50,647 bases of DNA from a bacterium (lineage in GTDB: Bacteria > Bdellovibrionota_C > UBA2361 > SZUA-149 > JAEUWB01): NCBI GenBank assembly GCA_016786595.1, contig JAEUWB010000006.1, positions 1 to 50,647 of the forward strand, written 5' to 3'. The position numbers and the translations under genes are program-made. This document shows, piece after piece, positions 35,863 to 45,715 of this stretch. The notes under the pieces were generated by a model. It saw nothing but the letters and a program-made list of their open reading frames with translations, was not told where the DNA came from and made no database searches. Within the stretch, counting starts at the first letter, position 1, and each line of letters begins with the position of its first letter.

Positions 35863-37452
35863 TTAATGTCGAAAATGCCTCTCTCCGGTAAAGACCATTG
35901 CCACGTCTAACTCGTCCGCGCGGCAAATCACGTCTTCATCTTTAATTGAGCCGCCGGGCTGGACAAGAGATTTAATTCCAGCTGCAGCTAAATATTCAAG
36001 CGTATCAGAAAATGGTAAAAATGCATCCGATGCAGCAGCAGCGTCCTGGACATCAAAACCTTGGGCTTGGGCACGCTCAATTGCAAGTCGTGACGAATCA
36101 ACACGACTCATCTGCCCAGCACCAATTCCAATCGCCTTGCCATCTTTGGCAATCACAATGGCATTAGACTTAACGTGCTTACAGACAACCCAAGCGAGAC
36201 TTAAATCAGTGAGCTCTTGCGGCTTTGGTTTACGCTTCGTAACCTGACGCGCCTGAGTAAGGTCTACAAGCGCAGCATCGTTTTCTTGGAGTAAAATACG
36301 TCCAAAGACCAATCTTGGAGTCAGTTCGCCTTGAGAATACAGCTGATCGGTAATTTGGAGCACGCGCACGTTTTTCTTCTGCGCTAAAACTTCAAGCGCT
36401 TGCGGGGCAAATTTTGGTGCAATAATAACCTCAACAAAGCCTTCGATAATTGCCTGAGCTGTTAGCGCATCAAGCGTGCTTGTGGTTGCAATAATTCCAC
36501 CAAAAGCGCTGACGGGATCGCAAGCTCGCGCTGCCTGAAAGGCTTCCAGTAAAGTTTTGCCACAGGCAACACCGCATGGATTGAGGTGCTTAATAATTGC
36601 AATACTCGGCTCGCTTGCGGCAACTTGATTAAGTTCTCGAGCAAGCTGCCAAGCTGCATCTGCATCAAGCAAGTTATTATAGGAAAGCTCCTTACCTTGT
36701 AGCTGTTTTAGCTCCGGGGCAGAAGTAGTATTGGCGATCTCATAAAGTGCGGCCAACTGGTGTGGATTCTCACCATAGCGTAGAGCTTGCGACTGCTTGA
36801 GAGTAAAGTTTTCCACGCCACCAAGCGTCATTGCCTTGCCTTCGGCGTTAACTAATTTCTCGTTTAAGGATAAGTAGCGCGCAATTGCGCCATCATAGGC
36901 AGCAGTGAAAGTAAAAACCTTAGCGGCAAGCTCACGGCGTAGCTCCAAGGAGATTTTCCCTCCCGAGCTAAGCTCCAACTGCACCCGTGGGTAATCTTTT
37001 GGATCGATTAAGACCACTACGTCTTTGAAATTTTTTGCTGCAGCCCTTAACATTGCGGGGCCACCGATATCAATAAATTCAATTAAAGATTGATGCTCGG
37101 GATCGCCAGCATTAATCGTTTCACGGACTTTCTGCAAAAAGGGATAGAGATTAACGATCACATAATCAATTGGACCGGCATCAAGCGCTTGCAAATCTTG
37201 CATATGCTGCGCAGAGTCGCGTCGGGCTAAAATGCCGCCATGGATCTTCGGTGTCAGAGTCTTGACACGACCATCCATAATTTCGGGTTGTCCAGTATAC
37301 TCACTAACCGCTGTGACCGCCACACCTGAGTCACGTAATACTTCGGCAGTATTACCCGTAGAAAGAATCTTTACGCCGCGCTGCTCAAGAAATCTTGCAA
37401 ACTCAACCGCTCCGGACTTGTCGGTTAGACTTATTAATGCGTAACTATTCAT
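35863..37452 (-). CDS. purH: Bifunctional AICAR formyltransferase/IMP cyclohydrolase
   Basis: 529 residues, typical. The N-terminal IMP cyclohydrolase domain shows ALISLTDKSGAVEFARFL, LSTGNTAEVLRDSG and VKTLTPKIHGGILARRD. The C-terminal transformylase domain shows LRYGENPHQLAALY, KHLNPCGVACG, DPVSAFGGIIA, and VVCKHVKSNAIVIA. It performs the last two steps of IMP synthesis. The stop is 12 bp from the end of the convergent secreted-protein gene. The leader contains a hairpin-rich 290-bp block. Confidence 0.98.
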   Translation of the reverse strand: MNSYALISLTDKSGAVEFARFLEQRGVKILSTGNTAEVLRDSGVAVTAVSEYTGQPEIMDGRVKTLTPKIHGGILARRDSAQHMQDLQALDAGPIDYVIVNLYPFLQKVRETINAGDPEHQSLIEFIDIGGPAMLRAAAKNFKDVVVLIDPKDYPRVQLELSSGGKISLELRRELAAKVFTFTAAYDGAIARYLSLNEKLVNAEGKAMTLGGVENFTLKQSQALRYGENPHQLAALYEIANTTSAPELKQLQGKELSYNNLLDADAAWQLARELNQVAASEPSIAIIKHLNPCGVACGKTLLEAFQAARACDPVSAFGGIIATTSTLDALTAQAIIEGFVEVIIAPKFAPQALEVLAQKKNVRVLQITDQLYSQGELTPRLVFGRILLQENDAALVDLTQARQVTKRKPKPQELTDLSLAWVVCKHVKSNAIVIAKDGKAIGIGAGQMSRVDSSRLAIERAQAQGFDVQDAAAASDAFLPFSDTLEYLAAAGIKSLVQPGGSIKDEDVICRADELDVAMVFTGERHFRH

Positions 37453-37486
37453 TGCACTACCTTGATTGTGATTATACCAATTGCCA

Positions 37487-37756
37487 AAAAGTTTTCGGAT
37501 AACGAAACTTTCTTCAAGTTAAGACTAGCGTAAAACAGCAAAAATTTTAGGATCTTTCAAGCTTCCTCGAATAGACTTCTTTCGAATGAGGATTATAACA
37601 ACAGCTTAACATCTGGATATGATTGAGCAAATAAGGAAAATTTTTAAAAATTTTCAATCTTCTATCGAAAGAAGTCTATTTTGTTTTTTTCCATTTTTCT
37701 TGCGAAAAATGGATCATTAAACGTCTTTTGAATTTTTAATTCAAAAGACGTTTAAT
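37487..37756. other. Hairpin-rich block between the PP2C and purH genes
   Basis: AAAAGTTTTC (37487-37496) with GAAACTTTC (37504-37512), one bulge; a 16-bp stem AATAGACTTCTTTCGA (37570-37585) with TCGAAAGAAGTCTATT (37665-37680), holding the palindrome at 37636-37655 (GAAAATTTTT then its complement); CCATTTTTC-TTGC-GAAAAATGG (37691-37712); and a 19-bp perfect stem, 37716-37734 (ATTAAACGTCTTTTGAATT) with 37738-37756, loop TTT. On the + strand the 16-bp stem is followed by TTGTTTTTTT. No gene is present. Confidence 0.75.
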
Positions 37757-37778
37757 AAGCAGGGAGTCTGGGCAATCA

Positions 37779-40136
37779 CTAGGGTGCAAGTTGCTTGACG
37801 GCGCGCTCAAGGCGGAAACGTTGTTCCTCGGGATGTGGCACTTTATTAGTAAATTCTTTATAGCTTTTCAACAGGCCACTACGCTCTGCCAACAACTCGC
37901 GCTTGCGACTGGCGCGAATATCCGGTGGTAATACTCCGGTGCCCTTAATAATCCCGACTAAACGATTTAGCAAATCAACGCGACTCTGCAAGTCGCTCTT
38001 GATCAGCAGCGCATCAGCCATTTCAGTAGAAAATTTATTGAGCACCTGATCGACGCCTTTTTTCATGACTTGCTTGAACTTAGCCAATTCGGTTTCAAGT
38101 TCTCGACCAAGCTGCGCCATGCGAGCTGCAGCGGCATCATCACTTAAGTTGCTGCGCCAACGCTCGACCGCATCAAGATATTGCAAAGAAATTGTTTTAT
38201 AGGTCGCTCGCGCGCGCTCAACTTCAGCACTCTCCTGCGAAAGTTCTGGACCAAGTTGGTCGATTGCTTGTTGATCTAAATTTGTCTTGCGATCAAGCCA
38301 GAGGTAATAGCGCCTGCGTAAATCATCGTATTTCTTGGAGACTTGATCGCTGGCCTTACGTGTAGTCACAATTTCATCCTCAACTCTCGAAGCCAGGTCT
38401 TCCAATTGCTTTGGTTCTGTTAAATCAAGAAACTTCAAACGTTCATCAATTAAGGTAATGCGTGAACGGATATCGACCTTACTGGCTACTAGCGAGGACT
38501 TTTCTGCGTCTGACATAATGCCAACCCGAGGAGCATTTTGCGTGATCACCCGCGTGCGCTTCGCTGCTTCCTGATTCCAATCGACAAGCTCCACAGCAGA
38601 GTTATTACCAAACCAAGTCATCTCCGTAGGAGCAGATTCAGAAACGTCAAGCCTTGTAGCAGCAAGCATCGCACGCTCAACCGCAGGGTCGCGTGCCAGT
38701 GCAGCATCGATCAAGTCGTTTCCTTGTGGATTTGAAACTTCGGCACCTTCAGGAACAACGGCAACCTGAGGCCAGCTTTGCTCGCTTGCTGAATTCGGCA
38801 TTTCCGTAGTGGGAATTGGCGGAATTGGAGTGACATTAATCGGTAGCTGAGTTTGCTGAGTTGTTGTCGAATGCGCTTGGGGTTGGGTTACTTCCCCGAC
38901 ATTACTAACAGTTGAGCGGGCAATTTGGACTTGATTCTCACGGGCGCGTGGGTAGATCGCAATCACCGTTGCCAAGAGCGATAGCAATACTGCGCCGAGC
39001 ACAAAATATTGAATCCGCTCCAATTGCTCGACATGCTCGCGACGGACTTCTGTTTTTTCTTTGCCCGTCTTATCTTTCTGTTCCTTCTTACCGGATTCAA
39101 CTTCAGATTTCTCAATCCGTAAAGCTTCAACTTTTCCTTCTTTTGGCTTATGCGCCTGACTTGTACTCTTGGCCTGACCATTGGTTTCAAGTGTCGCCTG
39201 AGGTTTAGCTTGGACTGAGGCATCTTCAACTTGCTTAGCTTCCTCTTTTGGTGGGAGCTTAGGTTCAACTTCTACCGATTTTTGGTGATATTTAACTGTT
39301 GCTGAAGTGACAATCTCCAACTCATCTTCTTCGAGATCGGGCGCCGCTGAAGCGCCAAACCCTGTGACTTCAACCACCTCAACTGTGATGTTATCTGTTC
39401 CACCCCGCTGGTTTGCAACATCGACGAGATGCTTGGCTGCTTCACCTGGCTCATAATTGCCAATAATTTCGATCATCTCATCTGCAGTTACGAGATTATA
39501 TAGTCCGTCACAGCAAAGCAGGAACTTATCACCCTTTTCAACCGTTTGAGATAAGAGGCGTAGTTCGACTTCGATTGCAGCTGTCGGACCAAGTGAACGG
39601 CTGAGCATGTGTGCGATTGGATGATTTGCTGCCTCTTCTTCTGAGATTGCCCCCGAATCAACAAGCTCTTGCACTAGCGTGTGATCTCGCGTGAGCTGGT
39701 AAATCGTTCGCCCCCGCAACATATAAATACGAGAGTCGCCAACATGGGCAATCATTGCACGTTGGCCAATTAAGCCCAGCGCTACTAAGGTCGTGCCCAT
39801 TCCAGATAAATTTTCATTATCCTTACTGGCCTCAAAAATTGCGGAATTTGCTTTCTCGATCGAAGCACGCAGCGTCTGCTCCGTGATTAAACCGTCTTGG
39901 TTAACTGAATTTTTCGCTACGATATCAACCGCCATCGCAGAAGCCGTAGCCCCACCACGAGCCCCGCCCATTCCGTCGCAAACGATAAATAAATTTCCCT
40001 TAGTCGAACGCAAGTAGCCATAAGAATCTTGATTCTCGGTACGTTGCATCCCCACATCCGACTTGACGGCGAGCTTGAGCAGTAGATGCTCGGCACCTTG
40101 GGATTTAGCTGGGTCTTTTGTTAGGTCTTCTGCCAT
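37779..40136 (-). CDS. PP2C-family protein phosphatase with membrane helix and coiled-coil outer domain
   Basis: 785 residues. PP2C domain 20-257: D37 in QRTENQDSYG, D54 in VCDGMGGARGG, AHVGDSRIYMLR, RDHTLVQELVDSG, D210 in CCDGLYNLV and D248 in GGTDNITVEVV, so the metal site is complete. A Lys/Glu/Gln-rich linker leads to one membrane helix (375-395). The outer 390 residues are charged and helical, probably coiled coil (RSRITLIDERLKFLDLTEPK, ARMAQLGRELETELAKFKQ). It most likely dephosphorylates targets of the kinase at 28058, although the two genes are 8 kb apart. Confidence 0.93.
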   Translation of the reverse strand: MAEDLTKDPAKSQGAEHLLLKLAVKSDVGMQRTENQDSYGYLRSTKGNLFIVCDGMGGARGGATASAMAVDIVAKNSVNQDGLITEQTLRASIEKANSAIFEASKDNENLSGMGTTLVALGLIGQRAMIAHVGDSRIYMLRGRTIYQLTRDHTLVQELVDSGAISEEEAANHPIAHMLSRSLGPTAAIEVELRLLSQTVEKGDKFLLCCDGLYNLVTADEMIEIIGNYEPGEAAKHLVDVANQRGGTDNITVEVVEVTGFGASAAPDLEEDELEIVTSATVKYHQKSVEVEPKLPPKEEAKQVEDASVQAKPQATLETNGQAKSTSQAHKPKEGKVEALRIEKSEVESGKKEQKDKTGKEKTEVRREHVEQLERIQYFVLGAVLLSLLATVIAIYPRARENQVQIARSTVSNVGEVTQPQAHSTTTQQTQLPINVTPIPPIPTTEMPNSASEQSWPQVAVVPEGAEVSNPQGNDLIDAALARDPAVERAMLAATRLDVSESAPTEMTWFGNNSAVELVDWNQEAAKRTRVITQNAPRVGIMSDAEKSSLVASKVDIRSRITLIDERLKFLDLTEPKQLEDLASRVEDEIVTTRKASDQVSKKYDDLRRRYYLWLDRKTNLDQQAIDQLGPELSQESAEVERARATYKTISLQYLDAVERWRSNLSDDAAAARMAQLGRELETELAKFKQVMKKGVDQVLNKFSTEMADALLIKSDLQSRVDLLNRLVGIIKGTGVLPPDIRASRKRELLAERSGLLKSYKEFTNKVPHPEEQRFRLERAVKQLAP

Positions 40137-40163
40137 CTGTATTTAGACGACAAAACTAGCCGT

Positions 40164-40190
40164 AAAGGCTCACAAAAAGCTAGAGCCTTT
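40164..40190. terminator. Hairpin between SPOR and PP2C genes
   Basis: AAAGGCTC (40164-40171) pairs with GAGCCTTT (40183-40190). An alternative pairing CTAGC/GCTAG overlaps it (40156-40183). On the minus strand no U-run follows; it may be an attenuator or a weak terminator. Confidence 0.35.
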
Positions 40191-40267
40191 TCAATTTGAT
40201 TCTGATAATTTAAAACAACTCGTTTCAGCTGGTAACTAAGTGAGATTGCTATATTTTTTCGGAATAC

Positions 40268-41122
40268 CTAAGAAACCTTTCGGACATAGGGGATGTTTCG
40301 AGTAACTTGAGCGCCAGCAATTTTCTTACGCGCTTTCTCAGCTTCTTGGCTCGTCAGGAATCCAGGAACCGTGATTTTATAGTAGGTCTTACCGTTCGAA
40401 CGAGTCGGCACCATTGAAGCCGTATACCCAATCTTCTTTAAGCGTCGAACTGTAACCTCAGCTGATGACTTTGCCGGATCAGATGAAACTTGAATCGAAT
40501 ATGTTCCCTTCGATTTAACTTCAGACGTTTTGATTGTGCCTTGAGTGGTACTGCTTGCTGCTTGATTGACAAGGGCACTTTCCTGAGGACTGGGCTCCGC
40601 TGCAACCATTGCGCGCGCTTGCTTCAAATCGACTGCTTCAGCCTGGTGCTGCTCAGCGACAACTGTTTCAACAGGCTCTGTGCTAGCAGCCTTCATTTCT
40701 GGCACTACCTGGGCAGCTTCGATACTCGATACTGAAGATAATTGAACGGGCTTACTTGGCGCCAGGGTGGCTTCTTGTTGATGACTGGCGACTTGAATTG
40801 TCTGCGCCGGCAAAGTCGAAGCGTTGGAAATCGTCTGGGCTCCTGCTACTTGTGCCGGGGCATCGAGATTTGAAGTTGCAGCCTGATACTCTTCAGCAAT
40901 AGTTTTTGCAAGCTGAGTATGTTCCTGATTTCGTTCTACTGCAACCTCATTCAGTGGCAACTTCACGGCAAAACGCTCACTCTCTGAAAGCACTCGAGTC
41001 AAAGCCCTTTTTTCACCAGTTTCAAGGCCGATGAAAAAAACTACAGTTGCAGCAGCAACTGTTAGCAAACCAGTCATTAATACTTGTAGCCAGGTAATTG
41101 AAATTGAATCTGAAGTTTTCAC
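40268..41122 (-). CDS. SPOR-domain membrane protein
   Basis: 284 residues. One N-terminal membrane helix (about 9-31, WLQVLMTGLLTVAAATVVFFIG) is followed by an Ala/Gln/Val-rich periplasmic linker (about 60-205) and a C-terminal SPOR domain (about 208-284: GTYSIQVSSDPAKSSAEVTV, KIGYTASMVPT, KTYYKITVPGFLTSQEAEKA). SPOR domains bind denuded peptidoglycan glycan at division sites. It lies 78 bp after the ArgRS-like gene; an argS-SPOR gene pair is something I remember from deltaproteobacterial genomes. Confidence 0.9.
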   Translation of the reverse strand: MKTSDSISITWLQVLMTGLLTVAAATVVFFIGLETGEKRALTRVLSESERFAVKLPLNEVAVERNQEHTQLAKTIAEEYQAATSNLDAPAQVAGAQTISNASTLPAQTIQVASHQQEATLAPSKPVQLSSVSSIEAAQVVPEMKAASTEPVETVVAEQHQAEAVDLKQARAMVAAEPSPQESALVNQAASSTTQGTIKTSEVKSKGTYSIQVSSDPAKSSAEVTVRRLKKIGYTASMVPTRSNGKTYYKITVPGFLTSQEAEKARKKIAGAQVTRNIPYVRKVS

Positions 41123-41200
41123 GGCGTTTACTCCTCTCCGTTATGTGCCAACATGCTTAACCGATATAGTACGGAGCTGCTAGAGCTGACAAGGGCTAAA

Positions 41201-42151
41201 TTACTCAGAAATTTCTCGATAATTTACCCTCAGTGTCCGGAGCAAAAATCTAGCTAACTCATGGACGATATTAGTGATTAGACGGTATTTTGAGTTTGTA
41301 TTTAATGCTAACTCAGCTCGGACTTTTGGCGAATTATAGTAATAAAAGAACGCTCGCCCCAGATTTACAATTTCGCGGACCAAGATCTCGGGCTGGCGTA
41401 AGCGCTGTGCCAATTCAAAATTATGCCGCACCGCAAAAAGCGTTGTCCAAAGTGGTAAAAATTCTAAACAGCCAAAGAGCTGAAGAGGATTCAATCGACC
41501 AATGAGTTCACGCCGCGTTTTCTCATCGAGTGTATACTGACTGCTTTGATTTAAAAAATACTTAATAAACCACGGAATGTTTCTTCGCCCATTCAGATTT
41601 TTTAAATAGGCATTTGCATCCAGTTCGCGGTCTGCAATTAGCGCTAGTGCCATCAAATAATCATTGGCAGAAAAAGCTGCAACATCCCCGCGGACCTGCA
41701 CTAGCAATTCAAGTGGTTCAAAATTTATCGAGCGGATGAGTTGGCGCAAATCTATTGGACTTATCACTGCAGTGCTGACTTGTAATCGACTCAAGAGCGC
41801 TTCCCATGGTTGCTCTAACACTAAGAGCAAGAATTGCTGCTTCCAATTGTCTGTCGCAGTCGCATTGAGAAATCCCTGCCCTCCGCGCATTAATGTAAAA
41901 TTTTTGCTACCGGCAAAGCCTTGAATGATGCGCTCTGAAATTTCTACCGGCGATACAAGCCGTTGCAGTTGCGCGCGATATAGTTTGGCCAATTTAAACG
42001 GAGCACTCGAACTAATGTCACCCTCTCCAGGGATGTCACAAACACGCACTCCCGGAAATTCCGGCGTGCGCTTTAAGGTCTCTGCTTGCAATTCCTGGCC
42101 ATAGAGCGTAGCGATAATTGCACTTAATTCCTCGGCAAAATCGAGATGCAT
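41201..42151 (-). CDS. ArgRS-like protein without the catalytic core
   Basis: 316 residues, against about 560 for arginyl-tRNA synthetase. Residues 1-105 follow the ArgRS N-terminal (Add-1) domain: VCDIPGEGDISSSAPFKLAK, SPVEISERIIQGF, MRGGQGFLNATATDNW. Residues 190-316 follow its anticodon-binding (DALR) domain: RNIPWFIKYFL (ArgRS NPVxYVQYAHAR region), CLEFLPLWTTLF, IVNLGRAFFYYYNSPKV and YRLITNIVHELARFLLRTL. Only about 85 residues lie between, with no HIGH or KMSKS motif. It keeps an open frame and lies 5 bp after the CCA-enzyme gene, before SPOR. It may bind tRNA without charging it; eukaryotic DALRD3 is an analogous case. A degenerating argS is the alternative. Confidence 0.75.
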   Translation of the reverse strand: MHLDFAEELSAIIATLYGQELQAETLKRTPEFPGVRVCDIPGEGDISSSAPFKLAKLYRAQLQRLVSPVEISERIIQGFAGSKNFTLMRGGQGFLNATATDNWKQQFLLLVLEQPWEALLSRLQVSTAVISPIDLRQLIRSINFEPLELLVQVRGDVAAFSANDYLMALALIADRELDANAYLKNLNGRRNIPWFIKYFLNQSSQYTLDEKTRRELIGRLNPLQLFGCLEFLPLWTTLFAVRHNFELAQRLRQPEILVREIVNLGRAFFYYYNSPKVRAELALNTNSKYRLITNIVHELARFLLRTLRVNYREISE

Positions 42152-42156
42152 AAAAT

Positions 42157-43110
42157 TTAAACTTTTCCATGTAAGTCGAGCGCGATCTCTCGTTCAGACC
42201 TACTGACCTTTCCACTTAATAAAAATTCGAGTAATGCCGCTACAGGTAAATCTTTAAAAAGCTCCGCAAGCCAGCCAAGCCAACCCGTAGCATTCTCTTC
42301 GACTGTCAAACGATCGAGCCGCCCTAGATCAAGCTGCGGCAGGATTTGCTTGAGTATTCCACGCTGCGCCAAACTCTTGAGCACAACTAGAACCCTTTCT
42401 TCTTCTAAGCATTTTCTGAATTCAGAAAAAATTCGCTCCGGTGGCAGCCGTTTTATAAAATTTTGATTCACCGCCTGCGTAAATAAATCTTCGGTTTCGG
42501 TTGCAAAACTAAACCCTAAGCGCGTAGCAAAACGAATTCCCCGTAGCAGCCGCGCTGGGTCGTCCACAAAGCTTTGATCGTGAAGCACACGTAAAACTTT
42601 TAGCTGCAAGTCATGCTGCCCTGCGTGTAAATCAACGAGGGTAGTAAAATCCTCGGCCTTCAAGCTCAATGCCATCGCATTGATTGTAAAATCGCGTCGT
42701 GCCAAGTCTTGCGTTAAGTTTCCAGGAAAAACAATTGGCGGCAATCCCGCTTCCGGATATGTTTCACGGCGCGAACTAGCAAAATCAATTTCCTTAAAAT
42801 TCATTACCCAAGGATCTGCAAATTGAAATTTAACGGTATTGTAGCGCTTGAAACTAAGCATTTTTATTGACCTAGCAAGGCCTTGGCTCGTCTCGACAAA
42901 TATTTCCGTCCAACTCTCTTTTAGACTTGCGCACAGTTTCGCAGCATCACCTACTACTAATAAATCAATTTCGCGTGGCATTAACCCCAGCAGCAAATCG
43001 CGCACAGGGCCGCCTACTAAATAAAGGTCCGTTTGATTCCGAGCAAAAAAGTTGCCCAGGATTTTTAAGCTTGGCGCTAAATCATGCGGGATTTCAACTT
43101 TCTGCAGCAT
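42157..43110 (-). CDS. CCA-adding enzyme / poly(A) polymerase family nucleotidyltransferase
   Basis: 317 residues, short for the family. N-terminal motifs: LYLVGGPVRDLLLGL, then PREIDLLVVGDA where the family carries D-x-D (here E48-x-D50), ARRDFTINAMALSL, and DPARLLRGIRFATRLGF. The tail ends after about 60 residues beyond PERIFSEFRKCL, so the neck is present but the body and tail domains are shortened. Activity (CCA addition or polyadenylation) cannot be decided. The start codon is 1 bp after the mutS stop, so it is coupled to mutS; it precedes the ArgRS-like gene. Confidence 0.85.
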   Translation of the reverse strand: MLQKVEIPHDLAPSLKILGNFFARNQTDLYLVGGPVRDLLLGLMPREIDLLVVGDAAKLCASLKESWTEIFVETSQGLARSIKMLSFKRYNTVKFQFADPWVMNFKEIDFASSRRETYPEAGLPPIVFPGNLTQDLARRDFTINAMALSLKAEDFTTLVDLHAGQHDLQLKVLRVLHDQSFVDDPARLLRGIRFATRLGFSFATETEDLFTQAVNQNFIKRLPPERIFSEFRKCLEEERVLVVLKSLAQRGILKQILPQLDLGRLDRLTVEENATGWLGWLAELFKDLPVAALLEFLLSGKVSRSEREIALDLHGKV

Positions 43111-43111
43111 G

Positions 43112-45715
43112 CTAATTTAATTTACTCTCAGCCGTGATGTAAGACTTGGCGCGCTCGATAATTTTCTCAGGAACACCTGCAAGTTTTGCAACCTCAAGTC
43201 CATAACTCTTATCAGCCGCGCGGTCCTCGATGCGATGGGTGAAAACAAGATGCCCCGCCTGCTCGCGCACACCGACAGAAATACAAAATGCCGCACGCTT
43301 ACTTAAAGGCAAAGCATTTAGTTCATGAAAATGTGTCGCAAAAATTGTGAGGGCTTGGGCCTCGTCATGCAGCCACTCAGCAATCGAGCGAGCCAAAGCC
43401 AGACCATCACTAGTTGCTGTGCCACGGCCAATTTCATCAATTAAAACTAGTGACCGTGACGTGGCTTTGCGAATAATCGTGGCAGCCTCTCGCATTTCAA
43501 CCATAAAAGTTGAGTCCCCACGAGCCAAGTCATCGGCTGTTCCGATACGAGTGAAAATCCGGTCAACCAAGGACAAGCGTGCTTTTGTCGCAGGCACAAA
43601 AGATCCAATCTGAGCGAGCAATTGTATGACACCAATTTGTCGCAAATACGTAGACTTTCCACCCATATTAGGTCCGGAAAGCACGGCAAAACGTCGCTTC
43701 TCACCGTCGAGTTCGGCTTCGTTCGGCACGAATGCATGTGCACCAATAATATTTTCAACAACTGGATGCCGCCCACCAACAATACTAATCTTGGGTGCTT
43801 TACTAAATTCCGGACGCACGTAATTGCGACTGCGCGCGAGACTTGCAAAATTAGTAATCACATCAATCAGTGCAATCACCTGCGCAGACTGCTGGATTCG
43901 TGAAGCGTGCTGGGAAACTTCGCTGCGTAATGCAGTAAACAAATCGCGCTCAAGGTCGGCAGCTTTTCCCCGAGCAGAAAGTAGCTTAACTTCGATTTCT
44001 TTGAGCTCTTGTGTGACAAAACGCTCTGCGTTAACGAGTGTTTGCTTACGTTCAAAGTAATCAGGTATTTTTCCATCGGCTGGCTTCAAATGGGTTTTTG
44101 TGACTTCGATAAAATAACCAAAGACAGAGTTGTATTTGACTTTTAAACTCTGAATCCCCGTGGCTAAACGCTCCTTTTGCTCTAATCCAAGCAGGATGCT
44201 TTTCCCATCATCACAAAGCGTGCGCAGCTCATCGAGCTGGGAATTGTAGCCCGGATTAAAAATTCCCCCATCGCTAAGTTTTACAGGAGCATCTTCGCGA
44301 AGCGCAGTATTTAAAAGCGTTGCTAAATCCTCGAGCGCATCAAAATTTATCCCAAGTTGCTGCAGCAAATGTGCCTGTGAATTCTTAAATATCTCCTTAA
44401 GGCCTGGAAAAAGTCGTAGCGACTCTCCCAGCATTACTAAGTCTCTTGGACTAGCTCGACCATTTGTCACGCGGGTTAAGATTCTCTCCAAATCACGAAT
44501 TCCAGATAGAATCGCCTGGATTTTCTGCATGTCATGCAGACGGTTGACGAGTTCAGCAACTGCGTCAAGGCGGTTTTCAATTTCAGCAAGATTCGTGCTC
44601 GGAGCAAGAAGAACTGAACGTAAAAAACGATTGCCCATTGGGGTCTTAGTGCGATTGATATGCTCGAAAAGTGAATTTTTTCGCTCGCCATCAATTCGTG
44701 CCTCGAATAATTCCAAATTGCGACGCGTTGAAGCATCGATCACTGTGCCAGTGCTGCGATCAATTAAGCGTGCTTCGAAGATCGAAAATGGTTTACCACA
44801 AGCAGTTTCTTCGAGATAACTCACCAACGAGTCAACTAGGAGCGTGCGCTCGAGATCTGCATCTACCAGCAGCGATTTTAATCCACGGGTTGAGGCAAAT
44901 TTCTCAAGAACATCATGCTTTGGTCGTAAATTATAAGGGCGCAGCACAAATGGGATGTGCCGATCCGAAAAATACGTTTTTAATTCCTTAATCCACTCTG
45001 GCGCCGGGCTCGCATTAATTGTTGCCGGCAAAATTGCCTCGCGTGGAGAAATTTGCTCAATTAAATCCAATAATTCTTCTGGCGTTTCAGCGGTAGCAAG
45101 CTGCAAAGTTCCCAGTGAAATATCAATAAATCCTAGTTCAGCTCCCTTTCGTGCTGTGGGTAAAACCACGCAAAGAAAATTAAATTGCGTATCTGTGAGT
45201 CCGTCACCTTCAAAGCGCACCCCAGGGGTAACAATGCGTGTGATTTCACGGCGCACGATTGTCTTGCCTTTTGCGTTCAGCTCTGTTTCATCAAGTTGGG
45301 AAACAAACAAGCAACTAATTCCCGCATCGAGCAATTTGGGCACGTAATTATCAACGGCATGCAACGGAACCCCGCACATCGGCGTTGCACTCTCGTCATT
45401 CTTATCACGAGAAGTCAGTCGAATACTTAAAATTTCAGCGACTGTTTTTGCGTCTTCAAAAAAGATCTCGTAAAAATCTCCAACTTGATAAAGCACAACA
45501 TGGTTTGGGTTTGCGTTTTTAACTTCTAAATAATGCTTGAGCATCGGGGCCAGCTGGACTTGGTCGACTTGGCTCAATTCTTTTGTCGGCGAGAAGAGAT
45601 CGTCTGGGGCTGCTGCGGTCGTGGCTAGCGGTGGAAGCGCACTCTTTTGCACAGTATCTGGCTTTGCCTGCTTATTATTATGCTGAATTAATTCTTCAAA
45701 AGATAACTGCGACAT
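43112..45715 (-). CDS. mutS: DNA mismatch repair protein MutS
   Basis: 867 residues. The mismatch-contacting Phe-x-Glu is in VGDFYEIFFEDAK (domain I). The ATPase domain has Walker A SGPNMGGKSTYLRQI, the FMVEMREAA loop, Walker B LVLIDEIGRGTATSDGLALA and TIFATHFHEL. The composite motif at the C-terminus (ERAKSYI) is present, and the protein stops before the tetramerisation tail. The N-terminal 45 residues (SFEELIQHNNKQAKPD and a Pro/Ala-rich stretch) are an extension before the usual start. Followed directly by the CCA-family gene. Confidence 0.98.
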   Translation of the reverse strand: MSQLSFEELIQHNNKQAKPDTVQKSALPPLATTAAAPDDLFSPTKELSQVDQVQLAPMLKHYLEVKNANPNHVVLYQVGDFYEIFFEDAKTVAEILSIRLTSRDKNDESATPMCGVPLHAVDNYVPKLLDAGISCLFVSQLDETELNAKGKTIVRREITRIVTPGVRFEGDGLTDTQFNFLCVVLPTARKGAELGFIDISLGTLQLATAETPEELLDLIEQISPREAILPATINASPAPEWIKELKTYFSDRHIPFVLRPYNLRPKHDVLEKFASTRGLKSLLVDADLERTLLVDSLVSYLEETACGKPFSIFEARLIDRSTGTVIDASTRRNLELFEARIDGERKNSLFEHINRTKTPMGNRFLRSVLLAPSTNLAEIENRLDAVAELVNRLHDMQKIQAILSGIRDLERILTRVTNGRASPRDLVMLGESLRLFPGLKEIFKNSQAHLLQQLGINFDALEDLATLLNTALREDAPVKLSDGGIFNPGYNSQLDELRTLCDDGKSILLGLEQKERLATGIQSLKVKYNSVFGYFIEVTKTHLKPADGKIPDYFERKQTLVNAERFVTQELKEIEVKLLSARGKAADLERDLFTALRSEVSQHASRIQQSAQVIALIDVITNFASLARSRNYVRPEFSKAPKISIVGGRHPVVENIIGAHAFVPNEAELDGEKRRFAVLSGPNMGGKSTYLRQIGVIQLLAQIGSFVPATKARLSLVDRIFTRIGTADDLARGDSTFMVEMREAATIIRKATSRSLVLIDEIGRGTATSDGLALARSIAEWLHDEAQALTIFATHFHELNALPLSKRAAFCISVGVREQAGHLVFTHRIEDRAADKSYGLEVAKLAGVPEKIIERAKSYITAESKLN

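Follow-up and report, generated by a model that had tools for sequence, protein, structure and literature searches.

The window, a stretch of 50,647 nucleotides, was analysed around a gene that we call ARGL (Table 1). The frame is intact, as the initial annotation had described it, running on the minus strand from an ATG at 42151 to a stop codon at 41201-41203 with no internal stop. The same annotation had placed a nucleotidyltransferase gene upstream and a SPOR gene downstream, and both neighbours were recovered. The nucleotidyltransferase is a short one and is referred to as sNTase. The two genes sit in a longer block in the order mutS, another ORF in most species, sNTase, ARGL, SPOR, PP2C and purH, which occupies 35863-45715 of the window and is conserved phylum-wide. 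The functions encoded in this block look unrelated.

Table 1. Genes and protein domains at the ARGL locus, in positions of the window
Feature	Position	Strand	Basis and remarks
SPOR-domain protein, conserved downstream neighbour	40268..41122	-	Pfam, neighbourhood comparison
ARGL, ArgRS-derived protein without catalytic core, 316 aa	41201..42151	-	profile, Pfam, model
ARGL C-terminal helical bundle / DALR-like domain, ~residues 161-316	41204..41671	-	Pfam, profile, model, hhalign
ARGL linker in place of the Rossmann core, ~residues 114-160	41672..41812	-	model pLDDT
ARGL Add-1-like N-terminal domain, ~residues 1-113	41813..42151	-	Pfam, profile, model
sNTase, class-II tRNA nucleotidyltransferase, 317 aa	42157..43110	-	5 bp upstream of ARGL; Pfam, profile
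mutS, conserved upstream neighbour	43112..45715	-	1 bp from sNTase in the window; Pfam, neighbourhood comparison

Relation of ARGL to arginyl-tRNA synthetase

The window protein was first searched as a single sequence. Arg_tRNA_synt_N matched residues 26-96 with 20.0 bits (E 0.001), which is below the Pfam cut-off of 21.5. Pfam gave no DALR match, the PDB search returned only noise, and the single protein found no match in the genome contigs. An alignment of 12 ARGL homologues (A1), one per genome and all from the order of the window, was also used; identity within the order is 21-26%, and no stretch of A1 was conserved well enough to serve for the contig scan. Among these members, Arg_tRNA_synt_N was matched by eight (best 2.7e-6) and DALR_1 by four (best 0.028, sub-threshold). 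The initial annotation had suggested a profile comparison with ArgRS structures. When the 12-member profile was run against 177,635 PDB sequences, the top eight matches were all ArgRS. The Add-1 stretch matched with E 2.6e-6 and the DALR stretch with E ~0.006 at the correct end of 5b63, 4oby and 5yym, and the two follow each other in the same order as in ArgRS. Using hhalign, the DALR end was also aligned with the full ArgRS of the order (P 8e-4). The AlphaFold model of ARGL (pLDDT 83, pTM 0.76) was compared with the PDB by Foldseek; ranks 1-13 were all ArgRS, each match being weak and none having E below 0.01. The claim that Add-1 and DALR of ArgRS are recognisable holds for the family profile, for Pfam on the members and for hhalign, while the single sequence reveals only the sub-threshold Add-1 match.

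PF00750 (tRNA-synt_1d) was not found by Pfam in the window protein or in the 12 members, and neither HIGH nor KMSK is present in any of the 12. In the same comparison, H-x-G-H was kept in 12 of 12 true argS. Loss of the Rossmann core, HIGH and KMSKS had been annotated correctly. The replacement had been put at 85 residues and is shorter: in the AlphaFold model the core gives way to about 40-60 residues of low-confidence linker, with pLDDT ~50-65 over residues 121-160. ARGL resembles ArgRS in having Add-1 and a C-terminal DALR-like bundle in this order, and in overall fold. It differs in lacking the catalytic core, HIGH and KMSKS, and is therefore not expected to act as a synthetase; the genome encodes a true argS at another place. 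Judging from the residues that are missing, arginine activation and transfer by ARGL are expected to be inactive. We consider it almost certain that ARGL is ArgRS-derived and core-less.

A second, full argS, which the initial annotation had proposed to look for, was found in the genome of the window (completeness 96.8%) at C18:20020-21057 (E 8e-77, 571-aa frame). Nearly all genomes of relatives also carry a full argS. The short ARGL form is present in 14 of the 15 species of the order, and every complete copy is an intact full-length ORF. In the fifteenth species (G005, 70% complete), SPOR lies directly after sNTase and no ARGL was found. Omega was ~0.18 for ARGL, a rough value from a single congeneric pair with dS near saturation (1.9). 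The expectation that relatives keep the short form with omega below 1 was borne out. Its presence in 14 of 15 species, under purifying selection, shows that the short form is no assembly artefact. An assembly deletion of argS was ruled out by the intact short form in many independent genomes and the full argS elsewhere. The initial annotation had named two outcomes that would count against it, a lack of ArgRS profile matches, or the lack of a second argS together with signs of such a deletion; neither was observed.

With sNTase as the guide, the locus was also sought in the other members of the class, which is here identical with the phylum; 46 species were covered. In the majority of the other families, an ORF of about 400-440 aa comes after sNTase, and SPOR, PP2C and purH come next. 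These ORFs from outside the order of the window were aligned (A5). The ~420-aa orthologues are ArgRS-like by profile search, and Arg_tRNA_synt_N was found by Pfam in 13 of 18. An AlphaFold model of this form (pLDDT 82.5, pTM 0.84) had 14 Foldseek matches in the PDB at E<=0.001, all of them ArgRS (best 5.8e-8), and hhalign against true ArgS gave P 2.7e-5. HIGH is absent from the expected site in all ~420-aa members; the sole HxGH string lies at residue 373 of one member, in the C-terminal part. Omega for the longer form was 0.12-0.30, with dS near saturation. ARGL as a pseudogene was ruled out by the intact frames and the omega range of 0.12-0.30.

The profiles of the short and the long form match each other (A1 against A5, P 1.3e-4) and both occupy the same locus position; judged by position and profile, the ~420-aa and ~320-aa forms are the same gene. 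According to the model, the ~420-aa form has an eroded core and would still fold like a whole ArgRS. Because this form at the same locus folds like a whole ArgRS but has no HIGH, the core appears to have eroded in steps, with the ~420-aa form as an intermediate stage and the order of the window carrying the end point of the reduction. We infer that the longer form is ancestral, because regaining a lost domain is difficult.

The upstream nucleotidyltransferase and its pairing with ARGL

sNTase consists of head, neck and part of the body, without a tail, and its nearest relatives are the Aquifex A-adding and Thermotoga CCA-adding enzymes (4wby/1vfg and 3h37). Pfam recognised head and neck only. 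In the profile search against the PDB, the Aquifex A-adding enzyme 4wby was the best match (E 1e-75). The alignment stops at residue 300 of 410, and PF13735 was not found in sNTase. It therefore differs from the Aquifex enzyme by lacking the tail domain, which anchors the tRNA elbow there (PMC3925840, PMC4810234). sNTase measures 279-356 aa in the order of the window; homologues in other phyla have mostly 400-1000 aa. The base-selecting residues D184/R187 are invariant in 12 of 12 sequences, and the first catalytic Asp of DxD is kept in 10 of the 11 members that have this region. Based on the nearness of its profile to the A-adding and CCA-adding enzymes, sNTase is predicted to add A, CC or CCA to tRNA. 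The sNTase of the window has Glu47 in place of the first DxD Asp (42970-42972, minus strand), a change seen in this species only, whose enzyme may as a result be less active or inactive.

Some bacteria divide the work between several nucleotidyltransferases. Two further PolyA_pol-family genes were found in most genomes; in the genome of the window these are a PcnB-like gene and a full-length HD CCA-type gene. CCA is not encoded in 17 of the 37 tRNA genes found in this genome (G000; L232-L258), and therefore 3'-end synthesis is needed. Among its tRNA-Arg genes, three of four are without encoded CCA.

In all 12 of the first genomes, sNTase lies directly upstream of ARGL, overlapping it or within 41 bp. 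The adjacency was also seen in G004, G011 and 19 genomes outside the order of the window. The new finding is that a pseudo-ArgRS gene directly follows the tail-less short sNTase in 33 of the 46 species of the phylum. In one further species (G022) it is located elsewhere, the pair being on different contigs; in G037 it is present without an assigned position; and G029 was left undecided, as the contig ends just after sNTase. No pseudo-ArgRS was found in the remaining ten of the 46 species, all with a short sNTase, namely six of family f15, G016, G015, G017 and G005. All six f15 species (L095, L096, L100, L105, L106, L120) have SPOR right after sNTase, and two f15 genomes (G020, G038) show argS matches at more than one place. 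Several candidates were discarded. A weak match in G038 (L148) proved to be an HD-domain response regulator, matches in G036 (L090) and G016 (L147) were true argS, and a 639-aa ORF after sNTase in G022 (L119) was set aside as it gave no alignment with the family. G045 carries two sNTase and pseudo-ArgRS pairs (L098, L124), for which 9% contamination may account. In G003, the gene that follows ARGL is not SPOR; its place is taken by a gene whose product matches the DNA methylase family N6_N4_Mtase (L018:7874-9067).

A natural fusion of sNTase and ARGL was not seen, and sNTase homologues in other phyla have no ArgRS-like neighbour. The initial annotation had described the position flanked by CCA and SPOR genes as one that argS takes in some deltaproteobacteria. 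This was not confirmed: the full argS found in the phylum lies away from the sNTase locus, and no argS was seen in the examined flank of any of 73 homologous nucleotidyltransferase loci that lack the pair, nearly all of them belonging to other phyla. The pair sits inside a longer conserved block, and the adjacency is therefore only moderate evidence.

Predicted tRNA binding and a possible partnership

In E. coli, the Add-1 domain of ArgRS reads A20 of the D-loop via F36, Q40, A78 and N84, with F82 stacking (PMC8975779). The motif GQGFLN, residues 91-96 of ARGL, was aligned to this A20/elbow pocket. N96 is invariant in 12 of 12 members and aligns to N84, which is central to the A20 contact. The equivalent of F82 is Phe, Tyr or His in all 12, that of A78 is small, and the Add-1 motif GxG[FYH]xN is conserved in the short form. 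At the positions of F36 and Q40, by contrast, the E. coli residues are not retained (the F36-Q40 stretch corresponds to residues 43-47 of the window protein). The f13 genus has lost the Asn at the N96 position in its longer forms. The tRNA-Arg genes of the window's genome have A at D-loop position 20, as seen by inspection. With the N84, F82 and A78 positions kept but not F36 and Q40, the pattern fits an ARGL that would still hold the tRNA elbow but may read A20 less strictly. ARGL may or may not be specific for tRNA-Arg. Net charge was dropped as evidence for RNA binding; ARGL is near neutral or acidic, and the true ArgRS encoded in these genomes are no less so. We regard it as very probable that ARGL retains tRNA binding. 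The best explanation of ARGL is an ancient ArgRS paralogue turned into a non-catalytic protein with predicted tRNA binding.

The missing tail of sNTase leaves the elbow free, and ARGL is therefore proposed to serve sNTase in trans. It would work with sNTase as a tRNA-gripping partner. Add-1 of ARGL would take the tRNA elbow, the site gripped by the tail in the Aquifex A-adding enzyme, and the DALR bundle would lean on the anticodon arm. The short sNTase could then position the 3' end of the tRNA so that A or CCA is added or the end is repaired, with tRNA in general or tRNA-Arg in particular as the substrate. The step from neighbour to partner is inferred, and we give the partnership about an even chance. 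Still more tentative, though possible, is a two-part tRNA nucleotidyltransferase in which a tail-less class-II enzyme uses a dead ArgRS as its tRNA-gripping subunit, as an invention of a whole phylum of uncultured bacteria. Ten species speak against a partner role, since they have a short sNTase and no ARGL was found in them. There, sNTase can do without ARGL or uses something else, and these lineages argue against strict dependence. In addition, the PcnB-like and HD CCA-type enzymes could make tRNA ends without sNTase.

Known systems and alternative roles

DALRD3, the vertebrate METTL2 cofactor, has an ArgRS-like DALR domain and no recognisable synthetase motif; reports of it come from vertebrates alone, and its N-terminal region was described as lacking a recognisable domain (PMC7237682). 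The initial annotation had compared ARGL with DALRD3. The likeness stands in so far as both are DALR-domain proteins without a synthetase core. In contrast to DALRD3, ARGL keeps Add-1, occurs in bacteria and is linked most tightly to a nucleotidyltransferase instead of a methyltransferase; the gene neighbourhoods compared show no conserved methyltransferase beside ARGL. The bacterial aaRS-like proteins described in a review have the catalytic domain as their basis (PMC9437257). In the ARGL lineage the reverse happened, the tRNA-binding ends being kept and the catalytic middle dropped, and likewise, independently, in vertebrate DALRD3. AS-A, GluQ-RS/YadB, PoxA and HisZ are bacterial synthetase paralogues on the catalytic domain. 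They share with ARGL a new role for a synthetase paralogue, whereas ARGL dropped the very domain they retain. To our knowledge, all known bacterial synthetase-like proteins reuse the catalytic domain.

In human mitochondria, the TRMT10C/SDR5C1 platform holds tRNA during CCA addition by TRNT1 (PMC11144196). This is a separate protein platform holding tRNA, as is proposed for ARGL; however, its proteins are unrelated to ARGL, and TRNT1 has its own tail and is active without the platform. In the open-access literature, neither a bacterial core-less ArgRS paralogue nor a split tRNA nucleotidyltransferase was found. We know of no earlier case in which a catalytic subunit and a borrowed subunit that holds the tRNA share the synthesis of tRNA 3' ends. 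If ARGL serves sNTase, this would be the first such division of labour known to us.

ARGL could instead be a tRNA-Arg adaptor or chaperone for another enzyme, as DALRD3 is for METTL2, or for ArgRS, with the sNTase adjacency as inherited gene order. Both tRNA-contacting domains are kept, N96 is invariant at the A20-reading position, tRNA-Arg genes carry A at this site and conservation extends to the entire gene block, all in favour of such an adaptor. Nevertheless, no modification enzyme is conserved beside ARGL, the equivalents of A20-reading F36 and Q40 are gone and the f13 genus lost the Asn in its longer forms. We rate this role as rather unlikely. A decayed, functionless argS on its way out would account for the strong divergence inside the order and for the gene missing in about ten species. 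It is most improbable: complete copies are all intact and full-length, both omega estimates are low (with dS near saturation), residues are invariant, and the gene is kept over the whole phylum. Unlikely, too, is an ArgRS-derived ARGL that now binds other RNA or nothing but protein and might, for instance, regulate the neighbouring block. Its near-neutral or acidic charge would agree with this, and the sequences of the family differ too much for secure conclusions on single residues; but the true ArgRS in these genomes show the same acidity, and the short form has conserved the GxG[FYH]xN motif of Add-1.
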